Origin: Thermoplasmata archaeon | GTDB taxonomy: Archaea; Thermoplasmatota; Thermoplasmata; Lutacidiplasmatales; UBA184 | Direction of reading: 5' to 3' | Assembly (NCBI GenBank): GCA_027315455.1 | Contig: DAHUXZ010000024.1 | Coordinates: 1 to 34,054 of the forward strand | DNA: 34,054 nt | In this document: positions 12,837-15,448 of the stretch, one piece after another | Numbering within the stretch: position 1 is the stretch's first letter | Layout: each line of letters opens with the position of its first letter | Notes under the pieces: generated by a model | The model's input: only the letters and a program-made list of their open reading frames with translations | Told to the model about the DNA's origin: nothing | Database searches by the model: none | Position numbers and translations under genes: made by a program

Positions 12837-13160
12837 TCAGCTCTCCCGGAGCCAGTCGGCGAGCGGCAGCAGGCTGCGGTAGAGCGCCCTCCCCCTCGCG
12901 GTGAGCGCGTAGCCGCGGACCGGTGACTCCGGCCCGGCCGGGGTGCGGTGGACGAGCCGCTCGTGCTCGAGGGCCCGAAGGGTGGTCGTGAGGGTCGCGG
13001 GGCTCACGTGCGGCAGCGCCCGCTGGATCGGGCCGAACCGGGCGACGCCGTGGCGGCCGAGGAGCGTCACGACGCACATCGCCCACTTCCTGCCGACGAC
13101 GTCGATGAGCCCGACGGGAGGGCAGGGGCACTCGAGGGGGGCCGGAACCGTACGGGCCAC
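12837..13160 (-). CDS. HxlR-family winged-helix regulator, candidate arsenic or redox sensor
   Basis: A 107-residue MarR-like regulator of the HxlR family. The family start is clear: CPCPPVGLIDVVGRKWAMCV corresponds to the usual CP-x-DVIGGKW pattern, followed by RFGPIQRALPHVSPATLTTTLRALE (recognition helix), HERLVHR and the wing ending in YALTARGRALY. It therefore binds DNA as a dimer. Cysteines at about 11, 13 and 29 sit in the N-terminal helix region that senses thiol-reactive signals in relatives. It is divergent from an ArsC-like phosphatase and ACR3 exporter, where ArsR would normally be found, so it probably governs that operon. The GTG start lies about 25 bases from CATAAGC, compatible with a leaderless transcript. 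Confidence 0.88.
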   Translation of the reverse strand: MARTVPAPLECPCPPVGLIDVVGRKWAMCVVTLLGRHGVARFGPIQRALPHVSPATLTTTLRALEHERLVHRTPAGPESPVRGYALTARGRALYRSLLPLADWLRES

Positions 13161-13180
13161 TTCGCGGGTACGTAGCGGGC

Positions 13181-13208
13181 GCTTATGAGCACTTCAATAT
13201 TCAAAGCG
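13181..13208. promoter_or_regulatory. AT-rich divergent promoter/operator of the arsenic cluster
   Basis: This is the only AT-rich island between the HxlR gene and the ArsC-like gene. Rightward, TCAATATTC (13193-13201) lies about 24 bases before an ATG at 13221. Leftward, CATAAGC lies about 25 bases before the regulator GTG. The regulator probably binds here, but no convincing inverted repeat was seen. Confidence 0.45.
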
Positions 13209-13220
13209 GAACGAGGAGCG

Positions 13221-13316
13221 ATGCCGGCGGGGAAGCGGCGGGGGGACGCCGGGCCGACGCCGGACGGCAGCGCCGGCGCGGGCGACGGGGCCGGCCGGGA
13301 CCCCGCGGGGGCGTGA
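13221..13316 (+). CDS. Possible 31-codon leader ORF ahead of the ArsC-like gene
   Basis: A short frame starts at ATG 13221, just after GAGGAGCG and at the position expected for a leaderless start from the TATA-like element at 13193. It encodes a Gly/Ala/Asp/Pro-rich peptide with no cysteine. Its TGA overlaps the GTG of the next gene as GTGA, the same coupling used between the next two genes. It may be a real coupled leader or only a by-product of GC-rich sequence. Confidence 0.25.
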   Translation: MPAGKRRGDAGPTPDGSAGAGDGAGRDPAGA

Positions 13317-13768
13317 GGTCGGTGCCGACGGTCCTCTTCGTCTGCGTCGAGAACGCGGCCCGGTCGCTGATGGCCGAGGCGCTGTTCAACCGGGAGGCGC
13401 CGGCGGGCTGGCGGGCGGTGTCGGCGGGTACCCGTCCGGCCGCGGCGCCGAACCCCCGGACCGCTCCCATGCTCCGCGAGCTCGGCCTCCGGCTCCCCGA
13501 CCATCCCCCGCAGGAGCTCACGGAGGCCGTGATCGCATCGGCCCGGATCCGCGTCACGATGGGGTGTCTCGACGATGCGAGCTGCCCCGCGCGCCTGCGC
13601 TCGGCTCCCCTGCGGGACTGGGGCCTCGCCGACCCGGCGCGGCTCGACGAGGACGGCTTCCGCGCGGTCCGCGACGAGATCGCCCGGCGGGTGAGCGCCC
13701 TCCGGCGCGAGATCGCGGGCGCGGACCCGGGCACCGCGGACCCGGCGGGCGAGTTGGGCGGACGGTGA
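13313..13768 (+). CDS. ArsC-like low-molecular-weight protein phosphatase / arsenate reductase
   Basis: A 151-residue member of the LMW protein tyrosine phosphatase/arsenate reductase superfamily. The catalytic P-loop is CVENAARS (CX5R-S) near residues 11-18, followed by LMAEALFN and SAGTRP, as in ArsC of the thioredoxin-dependent class. The late region has TMGC near 83 and LRDWGLADPA, the DP loop with the general-acid Asp. The extra cysteines at 86 and 92 could serve as the resolving pair for arsenate reduction. The P-loop contains Glu-Asn-Ala-Ala instead of the common Gly-Asn-Ser-Cys. Its position directly before ACR3 argues for arsenate reductase. GTG at 13322 is an alternative start. It is coupled to the exporter by GTGA. 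Confidence 0.85.
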   Translation: MRSVPTVLFVCVENAARSLMAEALFNREAPAGWRAVSAGTRPAAAPNPRTAPMLRELGLRLPDHPPQELTEAVIASARIRVTMGCLDDASCPARLRSAPLRDWGLADPARLDEDGFRAVRDEIARRVSALRREIAGADPGTADPAGELGGR

Positions 13769-14892
13769 CGGTGGCCGACCCGGCCGCGCGCGCTGCCCCG
13801 GCCGCGCCGTCCGGGCGGCTCTCCTTCCTCGACCGGTACCTCACGCTGTGGATCTTCCTCGCGATGGGGGCCGGCCTCGTCCTCGGCGAGGCGGTCCCCG
13901 GGATCTCGAACGCCCTCGACCGTCTGACCGTCGGGACGACGAGCCTCCCGATCGCGGCCGGGCTCATGCTGATGATGTACCCGCCGCTCGCGCGGGTCCG
14001 CTACGGGCGGATGCGCTCGGTGTTCGTCGACGCGCGCCTCCTCGGGCTGTCGATGCTCGAGAACTGGCTCATCGGGCCGCTGCTCATGTTCGGTCTCGCC
14101 GTCGTCTTCCTGCGGTCGGCGCCCGGGCTCATGGCCGGGGTCATCCTCATCGGCCTCGCCCGCTGCATCGCGATGGTCCTCGTCTGGAACGACCTCGCCT
14201 GCGGCGACCGGGAGTACGCGGCGGCGCTCGTCGCCCTCAACTCGGTCTTCCAGATCCTCACCTTCTCCGCCTACGCCTTCCTCTTCCTCACGGTCCTTCC
14301 GCCGTACCTCGGCCTCGGCGCCACGACCGTCGAGGTCACCTTCGCTTCCGTCGCGGTGAGCGTCGGCCTCTACCTCGGCGTTCCGTTCGTCGCCGGGCTC
14401 GTCTCGAGCGTGGGGCTGCGGCGCCGACGGGGGGACGCCTGGTACGAGACGCGCTTCGCCCCGCGCCTCGGCCCGATCACCCTCGCGGCGCTTCTGTTCA
14501 CCATCGTCGTGATGTTCGCCCTCCAGGGCGGCCGCATCCTCGCGAACCCCCTCGGGGTGCTCGAGGTCGCGCTCCCCCTCGCGCTCTACTTCGTCCTGAT
14601 GTTCTTCGGCGCCTTCGCCCTCGGGCGGAAGGCGCGGGCCGGCTACGAGCGGAGCACCACGCTCGCGTTCACGGCGGCGAGCAACAACTTCGAGCTCGCG
14701 ATCGCCGTCGCGGTCTCGGTCTTCGGGCTCGCCTCCCCGGAGGCGTTCGCGACGGCGATCGGGCCGCTGATCGAGGTGCCGGTCCTCCTCGCGCTCGTCC
14801 GGGTCGCCGTGCGGCTGCGCGACCGCTGGGCCTTCACCGGGCCGGCGGCGGCCGGGGCCGCGGCGCGTGTGGTCCGTGGGCCGGAAAGATAG
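13765..14892 (+). CDS. acr3: ACR3-family arsenite efflux transporter
   Basis: A 375-residue, ten-helix membrane carrier that exports arsenite. After a short Ala/Pro-rich tail the protein begins with LDRYLTLWIFLAMGAGLVLG, the ACR3 first helix, then LPIAAGLMLMMYPPLA. The helix 4 motif GLARCIAMVLVWNDLA contains the conserved cysteine needed for As(III) transport, and helix 9 has AASNNFELAIAVA, with the conserved Glu. Length fits the family. The GTG at 13765 overlaps the stop of the ArsC-like gene; GTG at 13771 is also possible. With the reductase upstream and the HxlR-type regulator divergent, this is an arsenic-resistance cluster. Confidence 0.93.
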   Translation: MTVADPAARAAPAAPSGRLSFLDRYLTLWIFLAMGAGLVLGEAVPGISNALDRLTVGTTSLPIAAGLMLMMYPPLARVRYGRMRSVFVDARLLGLSMLENWLIGPLLMFGLAVVFLRSAPGLMAGVILIGLARCIAMVLVWNDLACGDREYAAALVALNSVFQILTFSAYAFLFLTVLPPYLGLGATTVEVTFASVAVSVGLYLGVPFVAGLVSSVGLRRRRGDAWYETRFAPRLGPITLAALLFTIVVMFALQGGRILANPLGVLEVALPLALYFVLMFFGAFALGRKARAGYERSTTLAFTAASNNFELAIAVAVSVFGLASPEAFATAIGPLIEVPVLLALVRVAVRLRDRWAFTGPAAAGAAARVVRGPER

Positions 14893-14901
14893 TTATATAT
14901 A
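14892..14901 (+). promoter_or_regulatory. BRE/TATA promoter of hsp20
   Basis: GTTATATATA, preceded by the purine-rich GGAAAGAT (14883-14890) as a BRE candidate, is the strongest TATA-like element in the window. It predicts a transcription start near 14921-14923, some 22-24 bases before the hsp20 ATG. Confidence 0.7.
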
Positions 14902-14905
14902 GAAC

Positions 14906-14924
14906 CGCTAGCATACTCCTAGCG
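14906..14924. promoter_or_regulatory. Operator-like inverted repeat CGCTAG-N7-CTAGCG
   Basis: A perfect six-base inverted repeat with a seven-base spacer lies between the TATA box and the predicted start site of hsp20, where a bound repressor would block transcription. Placement and CTAG-containing form recall palindromic sites of archaeal heat-shock regulators such as HSR1 of Archaeoglobus (CTAAC-N5-GTTAG). The cognate protein is not in the window. Confidence 0.55.
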
Positions 14925-14925
14925 T

Positions 14926-14939
14926 CCTCCCAGAGGAGG
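14926..14939 (+). promoter_or_regulatory. Hairpin masking the hsp20 Shine-Dalgarno (candidate RNA thermometer)
   Basis: CCTCC (14926-14930), loop CAGA, and GGAGG (14935-14939) form a five-base-pair hairpin, extendable by a U-G pair. The 3' arm is the Shine-Dalgarno sequence, five bases before the ATG at 14945. With a transcript starting near 14921 the whole leader is this hairpin. Melting on heating would free the site. Confidence 0.5.
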
Positions 14940-14944
14940 GAAGC

Positions 14945-15448
14945 ATGACGAAGAGCACGATGGAGACCCAGATCGCCGCCCCCGAGACGACCGACCCCTG
15001 GAGCGAGTTCGACCGCCTTTTTGACGACCTGCGCCTGCGGGTCTACGGCTCCTTCGGCGTCACCCCCTGGAGCCTCTCCGGGGTCCCGTCGCCCGAGGCC
15101 GAGCCCGTCCGGCTACGCGCCGCCCCGGCCGACATCGTCGACCTCGGCGGAGCCTACCGCATCGTCGCCGAGCTGCCCGGCATCCCGAAGGAGGCGCTCG
15201 AGGTGACGATCCGCGGCCCCACCGTCGAGATCAAGGGCGAGCACGCGCCGGAGAAGGAGGGGGCCCCGGCGGGCGAGGTCCTCCACCGCGAGCGGACCTA
15301 CCGGGGGTTCTACCGCTCCTTCGAGCTGCCCGAGCCCGTCGTCGCGAAGGACGCGACGGCGAAGCTCGTGAACGGCCTTCTCGAGCTCGACCTGCCCAAG
15401 GAGCACCCGACGGCGGGCCCGGGCGAGATCATGGTCCCGGTCCAGTAG
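14945..15448 (+). CDS. hsp20: Hsp20/alpha-crystallin small heat-shock protein
   Basis: A 167-residue ATP-independent holdase chaperone that forms oligomers and binds unfolding proteins. The N-terminal arm (1-55) contains WSEFDRLFDDLRLRVYGSF, the amphipathic helix typical of archaeal Hsp20. The alpha-crystallin domain spans about 57-158, with DIVDLGGAYRIVAELPGI (beta 2-3), VEIKGEH, RTYRGFYRSFELPEPV and the hallmark NGLLELDLPK. The C-terminal tail ends in IMVPVQ, close to the usual I-X-I/V anchor. The ATG has a strong GGAGG at five bases, folded into a hairpin. It follows acr3 by 52 bases but has its own promoter. It faces a convergent gene across a terminator. Confidence 0.95.
   Translation: MTKSTMETQIAAPETTDPWSEFDRLFDDLRLRVYGSFGVTPWSLSGVPSPEAEPVRLRAAPADIVDLGGAYRIVAELPGIPKEALEVTIRGPTVEIKGEHAPEKEGAPAGEVLHRERTYRGFYRSFELPEPVVAKDATAKLVNGLLELDLPKEHPTAGPGEIMVPVQ

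Follow-up and report, generated by a model that had tools for sequence, protein, structure and literature searches.

A conserved heat-shock promoter element and structured hsp20 and dnaK leaders in Thermoplasmata

Introduction

How does an archaeon of the class Thermoplasmata control its small heat-shock gene hsp20, and is this control exerted at the promoter, in the leader of the messenger RNA, or in both? The question is raised by a contig of 34,054 nucleotides from a Thermoplasmata archaeon (GCA_027315455.1, contig DAHUXZ010000024.1), which was analyzed as a whole and is called the window below. Upstream of its hsp20 gene the sequence reads TTATATATAG (14893-14902), CGCTAG (14906-14911), CATACTC and CTAGCG (14919-14924), followed in the leader by CCTCC (14926-14930), CAGA, GGAGG (14935-14939), GAAGC and the ATG at 14945. 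Read directly, all of these letters sit where the original prediction had placed them. That prediction proposed a repressor bound to the CTAG palindrome and, in addition, a heat-melted hairpin over the ribosome-binding site.

In ROSE and fourU elements, which are bacterial RNA thermometers, a heat-shock gene has its Shine-Dalgarno sequence covered by a hairpin. For the archaeal heat-shock response, only two regulators are named in PMC9133787, Phr and HSR1, both of which repress heat-shock genes (this and the other articles cited here are quoted from those parts of them that were available). Our analysis indicates that the hsp20 promoter and leader of the window are probably part of a Thermoplasmata heat-shock regulon, in which a putative repressor site is combined with a hairpin that may dampen translation or protect the mRNA.

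Results

A promoter element in front of heat-shock genes

Upstream regions of hsp20 were compared within the genus, within the order and beyond. They share a gap-free block of 30 nucleotides that extends from the TATA box to the predicted transcription start and has the consensus TTWTATAGWAnnGCWAACWTACTnnTnnnG. The block is present at 68 of the 82 hsp20 loci (score above 20, with 26 of these sites having trained the matrix; loci scoring 20 or less were counted as lacking the element). Downstream of the TATA box, the conserved columns are -20 and the stretch -17 to -7 (GCWAACWTACT), followed by T at -4 and by the G of the predicted start. The 82 loci exclude four with too little upstream or N-terminal sequence (L020, L026, L027 and L028), and also L032 and L033, whose promoters are the same as those of L003 and L035; in the first set of sites, L033 stood in for L035.

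A model built only from the sequences of hsp20 sites and run over 26 genomes also retrieved a thermosome gene in G102, and dnaK in G001, G007 and the own genome. At dnaK, the element was the top-scoring site of the locus in all 26 readable loci; 30 had been fetched, and in four the N-terminal pattern failed to match. For four of these 26, the assigned start codon lies a few bases too early, which leaves their leaders slightly short. A second model, built from 43 hsp20 and dnaK sites and applied to 106 genomes of the order, yielded 137 places at E-values up to 0.5: 58 before hsp20, 70 before dnaK, nine before thermosome genes and none before any other gene. Training sites account for at most 43 of the hsp20 and dnaK matches and for none of the nine thermosome matches, and the filters used in this run may lose weak matches. 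Matches occur in 90 of the 106 genomes, with one to three sites per such genome; in the own genome, only hsp20 and dnaK are preceded by the element. All order-wide matches (137/137) stand before these three kinds of genes; the element is a heat-shock element, and the sequence comparison shows its conservation, spacing and specificity.

The element extends beyond the order, where it mostly precedes chaperone and protease-related genes. Among 400 genomes of the class, drawn evenly and searched at E-values up to 0.02, 92 had matches, and 29 places lie outside the order: nine before thermosome genes, seven before Cdc48, three before hsp20, one before LonB, one before a broken gene and eight before a CCA-adding-enzyme gene. 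A Pfam scan of nine of these proteins confirmed the names of eight and gave no match for the broken one; the remaining names are based on N-terminal likeness. The broken reading frame (L217) carries Hsp20-like and Cdc48-like remnants downstream of the element.

The CCA-adding-enzyme loci belong to other Thermoplasmata families (L211, L213, L214, L222, L223, L224, L229 and L231) and share an arrangement in which the element is followed, within the next 70 or so nucleotides, by a hairpin of about 65 nucleotides and then by the gene. A run of at least four T follows the hairpin in five of the eight loci, and GAATCCCC, presumably resembling a tRNA T-arm, is found in six. A search of these hairpins against Rfam gave no match; they possibly represent an unannotated small RNA.

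The CTAG palindrome and a possible HSR1-like dyad

Perfect inverted repeats of 6 bp with spacers of 3 to 10 are so frequent in the window (323, or 9.5 per kb; 34 with a spacer of 7) that the palindrome by itself is not significant. The tetranucleotide CTAG is depleted about 16-fold, occurring five times in the window where its base composition predicts about 80 copies, and two of the five are in the hsp20 promoter. Genome-wide, CGCTAG-N(5-9)-CTAGCG occurs at one place, compared with 19 for the same pattern read backwards as a control. The window is the only one of the 68 hsp20 promoters with all six pairs of the palindrome intact, and none of the 26 dnaK promoters has them; CTAG stands at the left place in 3/68 and at the right place in 1/68 hsp20 promoters. 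In the nearest relative, the region reads CGCAAACATACTACTGCCG. These counts rule out the CTAG half-sites as a conserved signal. The operator of the original prediction is supported as a regulatory element between TATA box and start, to which the 137 order-wide matches testify, whereas the expected conservation of CTAG half-sites in relatives is not supported.

The axis of the palindrome is shared with a possible HSR1-like dyad, CTAAC-N5-GTTAG, to which the window conforms in seven of ten letters. Across the 68 hsp20 sites this motif fits the block best at offset 14 (mean 5.69 of ten letters), and CTAAC scores best among 30 letter orders of the half-site; the right half-site is not well conserved. 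For dnaK promoters, the fit at offset 14 (4.50) is hardly above that at offset 8 (4.46). Complementary pairs at the palindrome axis reach p=0.016 against shuffles of the hsp20 sites, or 0.049 without the window, and this was the only one of seven axes tried with p below 0.05. In dnaK there is no dyad signal at this axis, and p values of 0.01-0.015 are found at axes 20 and 22. A GTAA/TTAC dyad within the core (axis 17.5) was rejected, as it is no better than column composition predicts. The element may be akin to the HSR1 site.

Candidates for the regulator

In the window's family, the matches listed for the Phr model NF053602 at E-values up to 1e-4 cover the N-terminal part only. Nearly full-length matches below the cut-off were present in two sister families (L254 in G038, L255 in G039 and L256 in G037), and these proteins are possibly distant relatives of heat-shock repressors. 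The own genome contains 17 HTH_20 matches, and the 11 loci read yielded ten distinct HTH_20-type genes. Three of their products were compared with solved structures, none convincingly. One of them, L244, matches the Phr structure PDB 2p4w (2.9e-5), but its nearest family is SufR (NCBIfam).

The leader hairpin of the window and its nearest relative

Two hairpin registers compete in the window leader, of which CCTCC/GGAGG is computed as the stabler (Table 1), and five of the six Shine-Dalgarno bases are paired in the predicted fold. In a gap-free alignment read by eye, the leader of the nearest relative (G007) differs at five positions, 14928, 14930, 14931, 14934 and 14943. The alternative register becomes TCCGC-TTA-GCGGA, with a compensatory change of T-A to G-C at 14928/14934, whereas in CCTCC/GGAGG one pair turns into a G-A mismatch and another into T-G. 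As one register is stabler in the window and the other is compensated in G007, conservation concerns a hairpin in which three site bases are paired. An equally long stem overlapping the Shine-Dalgarno sequence arises in 6% of shuffles of this single leader with the Shine-Dalgarno bases held fixed, so that the hairpin by itself is not significant.

The computed response to temperature is limited by the ViennaRNA parameters and by a model that takes no account of RNA-binding proteins, salt or the ribosome. In the window, the cost of freeing GGAGG is 10.1, 9.2, 8.0, 7.1 and 5.0 kcal/mol at 15, 25, 37, 45 and 60 °C, respectively, and the computed open fraction rises from 1.9e-7 at 25 °C to 6.7e-6 at 42 °C, 4.9e-4 at 60 °C and 5.2e-3 at 70 °C. 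At 37 °C as at 60 °C, the unpaired fraction of the Shine-Dalgarno sequence is 0.21. The open fraction increases from 25 to 42 °C by about 35-fold in the window, 440-fold in G007, 17-fold in G030 and 4-fold in G011; there is no increase in G009 and one of about 6-fold in G013, which has no leader hairpin. A switch-like thermometer at moderate temperature is therefore not supported by the modeled folding, with which a graded brake on translation, or a switch in a hot-living organism, would still be compatible. As possible guides to the growth temperature, 16S rRNA was looked for in the assembly and not found, and four tRNAs in 22 sources were too few to use. According to PMC9287336, Lutacidiplasmatales-like 16S sequences stem from strongly acidic habitats of 10-78 °C, hot springs included. 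The region 14860-15010 matched no Rfam family, ROSE and fourU included, at E-values up to 5.

With respect to the original prediction, a leader that consists mostly of hairpin and a hairpin that pairs the ribosome-binding site are both predicted here as well. The exact CCTCC/GGAGG register is not supported, the compensatory change looked for in its arms occurs once but in the other register, and melting is doubtful given the opening costs at 37 and 60 °C.

Structural constraint on hsp20 and dnaK leaders

No start codon lies at least 13 nucleotides after the predicted start in 4 of the 68 hsp20 promoters. After four genomes outside the family, Shine-Dalgarno sequences of fewer than three bases and leaders shorter than 15 or 17 nucleotides were dropped, 55 and then 48 leaders were kept; among the 48, five pairs are at least 80% identical. 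The folding energy of the 48 leaders is -191.5, compared with -156.5 when their 3' parts are swapped (sd 9.5, p=0.0001) and with -139.0 when the 5' part is shuffled (sd 12.0, 0/400). In a comparison of 23 leaders with shuffles, stem length gave p=0.010 and energy p=0.037; stems of at least 4 bp occur in six of the 23 against 2.9 expected (p=0.051). The mean rank among own shuffles is 0.287 for the 55 leaders, 0.521 for 163 crude control genes and 0.445 for 35 better controls. At least three Shine-Dalgarno bases are paired in 21 of the 48 leaders, and two of the 48 are unfolded.

The dnaK leaders (those of L117, L118 and 24 more loci) are about 41-57 nucleotides long and contain long G+C-rich hairpins, which mostly end no more than a few bases from the Shine-Dalgarno sequence and vary in their letters between species. 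Their energy is -570 compared with -435 after swapping (sd 16, 0/20000), and the mean z is -1.7 compared with -0.1 in the 163 controls. Their signal is stronger, yet they pair at least three Shine-Dalgarno bases in 7 of 26 cases, so that the feature common to both genes is a hairpin near the ribosome-binding site and not its masking. Statistically, the leaders of hsp20 and dnaK are under structural constraint.

A crude scan of 21 sources (20-kb stretches L147-L166 and the window) identified 13 genes, three of them hsp20, in which an open frame is preceded by a TATA-like box and a Shine-Dalgarno sequence, and such leadered genes seem to be rare in the genus. Because only these 13 properly leadered genes were available, crude gene calls and shuffles served as controls.

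The locus and its genomic setting

The source assembly comprises 1.98 Mb in 87 contigs, and the window (contig C16) has a G+C content of 69-76% per 2 kb. Table 1 lists the features of the locus.

Table 1. Features of the hsp20 locus; positions refer to the window.
Feature	Position	Strand	Remarks
Heat-shock promoter block	14895..14924	+	TATA box 14895-14902, core GCTAGCATACT 14907-14917, predicted start G; gap-free at 68/82 hsp20 loci
Perfect inverted repeat CGCTAG-N7-CTAGCG	14906..14924		intact in the window only; axis shared with possible HSR1-like CTAAC-N5-GTTAG dyad
Predicted transcription start G	14924	+	predicted from TATA spacing; G in 23/26 first-set hsp20 and 26/26 dnaK promoters
Predicted 5' leader, 21 nt	14924..14944	+	from predicted start
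Leader hairpin, register of the original prediction, CCTCC-CAGA-GGAGG with T-G closing pair	14925..14940	+	-8.3 kcal/mol at 37 °C
Alternative register TCCTC-CCA-GAGGA	14925..14937	+	-5.1 kcal/mol in the window; kept by compensation in G007
Shine-Dalgarno sequence AGGAGG	14934..14939	+	five bases 5' of ATG
hsp20, small heat-shock protein, 167 aa	14945..15448	+	open reading frame; HSP20 domain PF00011, 1.8e-16

Upstream of hsp20 (12837-14892) are genes for an HxlR-type regulator (minus strand), a low-molecular-weight phosphatase family protein and an SBF-family transporter, perhaps an arsenic-resistance-like cluster; the stop codon of the transporter frame (14890-14892) adjoins the hsp20 TATA box. 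A second hsp20 paralog of the own genome (L081, G000:C44:92624-92968, minus strand) is without the element, as is its counterpart in G007 (L082). Relatives of hsp20 in named records are those of a Thermoplasmata metagenome-assembled genome (L032, 75% identity) and of SubAcS15-120 (L033, 54%). The promoter and leader of L033 are identical to those of L035 from the window's genus (G075). PMC9287336 places SubAcS15-120, which originates from acidic grassland soil in Scotland, in the Lutacidiplasmatales. By way of L033 and L035, the window too is probably from this order.

Discussion

The mechanism that we infer combines a DNA and an RNA component. The element, which covers about 11 bp (-17 to -7) and keeps a fixed distance from both the TATA box and the predicted start, marks hsp20 and dnaK genes and, in some genera, those for the thermosome. 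At normal temperature a repressor would sit on it and block the promoter complex, and this repressor would be released upon heat shock, as is described for Phr and HSR1. The mRNA is predicted to start at about 14924, and its 21-nucleotide leader would form a small hairpin that overlaps the ribosome-binding site. This hairpin may lower translation or shield the 5' end, and an effect of temperature on it would be graded at most, rather than a switch-like melting.

Several observations weigh against this mechanism. The element is missing at 14 of the 82 hsp20 loci, eight of which are second paralogs, and the CCA-adding-enzyme gene that follows it at 8 of the 29 places outside the order is no classic heat-shock gene. 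It has no clear palindrome, and covariation at the dyad is weak. The Phr model exceeded its cut-off (320 bits) in none of the 106 genomes, and the element was not found within 120 nucleotides upstream of any of the ten HTH_20-type genes read in the own genome. For the leaders, the swap test specific to the Shine-Dalgarno sequence gives only p=0.010 with 55 leaders, and their mean energy (-3.65) is no lower than that of the controls (-3.59 in the 163 and -4.63 in the 35 better ones).

At the DNA level, the element could be read not by a repressor but by the basal machinery, either by a special TFB or TBP or during strand opening. Its fixed distance from both TATA box and start, the asymmetric core with its unclear dyad and the lack of a Phr match over the cut-off in the 106 genomes are in line with this idea. 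On the other hand, genomes with matches in the order have just one to three sites, all in front of heat-shock genes, and the core resembles an HSR1 half-site, with CTAAC as the best of the 30 letter orders; we consider a basal factor rather unlikely. At the RNA level, the hairpin of the window could simply result from the C-rich composition of a leader that lies opposite a G-rich Shine-Dalgarno sequence. The p value of 0.06 for the single leader, the borderline excess of stems of at least 4 bp, absolute energies like those of control genes and the two unfolded leaders all fit such an origin, but the swap and shuffle tests, which keep composition, are significant and G007 carries a compensatory change; a by-product appears unlikely. 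The alternative that we would give somewhat more room, doubtful as it is, holds that the hairpin is a 5'-terminal stability element against 5'-to-3' decay and that in hsp20 it overlaps the Shine-Dalgarno sequence simply because the leader is short. The dnaK leaders fold strongly while fewer than three Shine-Dalgarno bases are paired in 19 of 26, and some of the longer hsp20 leaders (24-28 nucleotides, in G120, G109 and G084) also leave this sequence mostly free; pairing of at least three site bases in the window and in 21 of the 48 leaders speaks against it.

The combination originally envisaged, a repressor at the operator and a true RNA thermometer whose hairpin is opened by heat to free the Shine-Dalgarno sequence, appears improbable to us. 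It draws on a site that is masked in the window and partly in the nearest relative, where one change is compensatory, and on the 35-fold and 440-fold rises of the open fraction in these two leaders, which would amount to a steep graded response if translation tracks it; the 10-78 °C range of related 16S sequences (PMC9287336) also makes a warm habitat conceivable. Yet the open fraction in the window stays minute up to 60 °C, with the Shine-Dalgarno sequence no more unpaired at 60 than at 37 °C, the relatives respond unevenly, with a rise also in the hairpin-less G013, and at least three site bases are masked in only 21/48 hsp20 and 7/26 dnaK leaders. More doubtful still is the idea of two layers conserved throughout Thermoplasmata, in which one new DNA element, common to hsp20, dnaK and thermosome genes and in other families to Cdc48 and LonB, would be joined by hsp20 and dnaK leaders acting as graded temperature-dependent translation brakes. 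If it were true, these leaders would be natural archaeal RNA thermometers.

The preferred combination of a putative repressor site with a leader hairpin can be compared with several known systems. The HSR1 operator of Archaeoglobus fulgidus (CTAAC-N5-GTTAG; PMC9133787) serves heat-shock genes including hsp20, as would the element of the window, and shares the axis of the palindrome. In Pyrococcus furiosus, Phr represses hsp20 and an AAA+ ATPase gene from a similar place in the start region, but its motifs, TTTA at -10, TGGTAA at the start and AAAA at +10, are unlike the element described here (PMC9133787, PMC10746257). The ribosome-binding site of the Methanolobus psychrophilus hsp20 leader is likewise predicted to be buried, so that such hsp20 leaders are not new in archaea; there, a 65-nucleotide leader from an upstream start at 8 °C contrasts with a 12-nucleotide one at 18 °C, and the available text of PMC5378194 describes start-site choice without showing melting. 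In contrast to ROSE and fourU, the stem found here is short, G+C-rich and made up mostly of Watson-Crick pairs, and it is predicted to stay closed through 60 °C. An engineered thermometer in Methanosarcina mazei, called the first to be used in an archaeon, works in an archaeal cell, but it is a deliberately introduced 26-nucleotide element from a bacterial dnaJ leader (PMC11549558). PMC4983044 and PMC2636863, in their available parts, mention RNA thermometers in general terms only. No demonstrated natural archaeal RNA thermometer was found among the titles, abstract beginnings and article passages searched, and no earlier report of the element was found among the titles and abstract beginnings listed.

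Conclusions

An element that, throughout an order of Thermoplasmata, singles out hsp20, dnaK and thermosome genes would point to a third archaeal heat-shock system, or to a distant HSR1-like one, and in either case it is directly testable. The sequence of the element provides a bait for the missing regulator. Likewise, the structured leaders of hsp20 and dnaK offer a concrete place to look for heat control at the RNA level in archaea.

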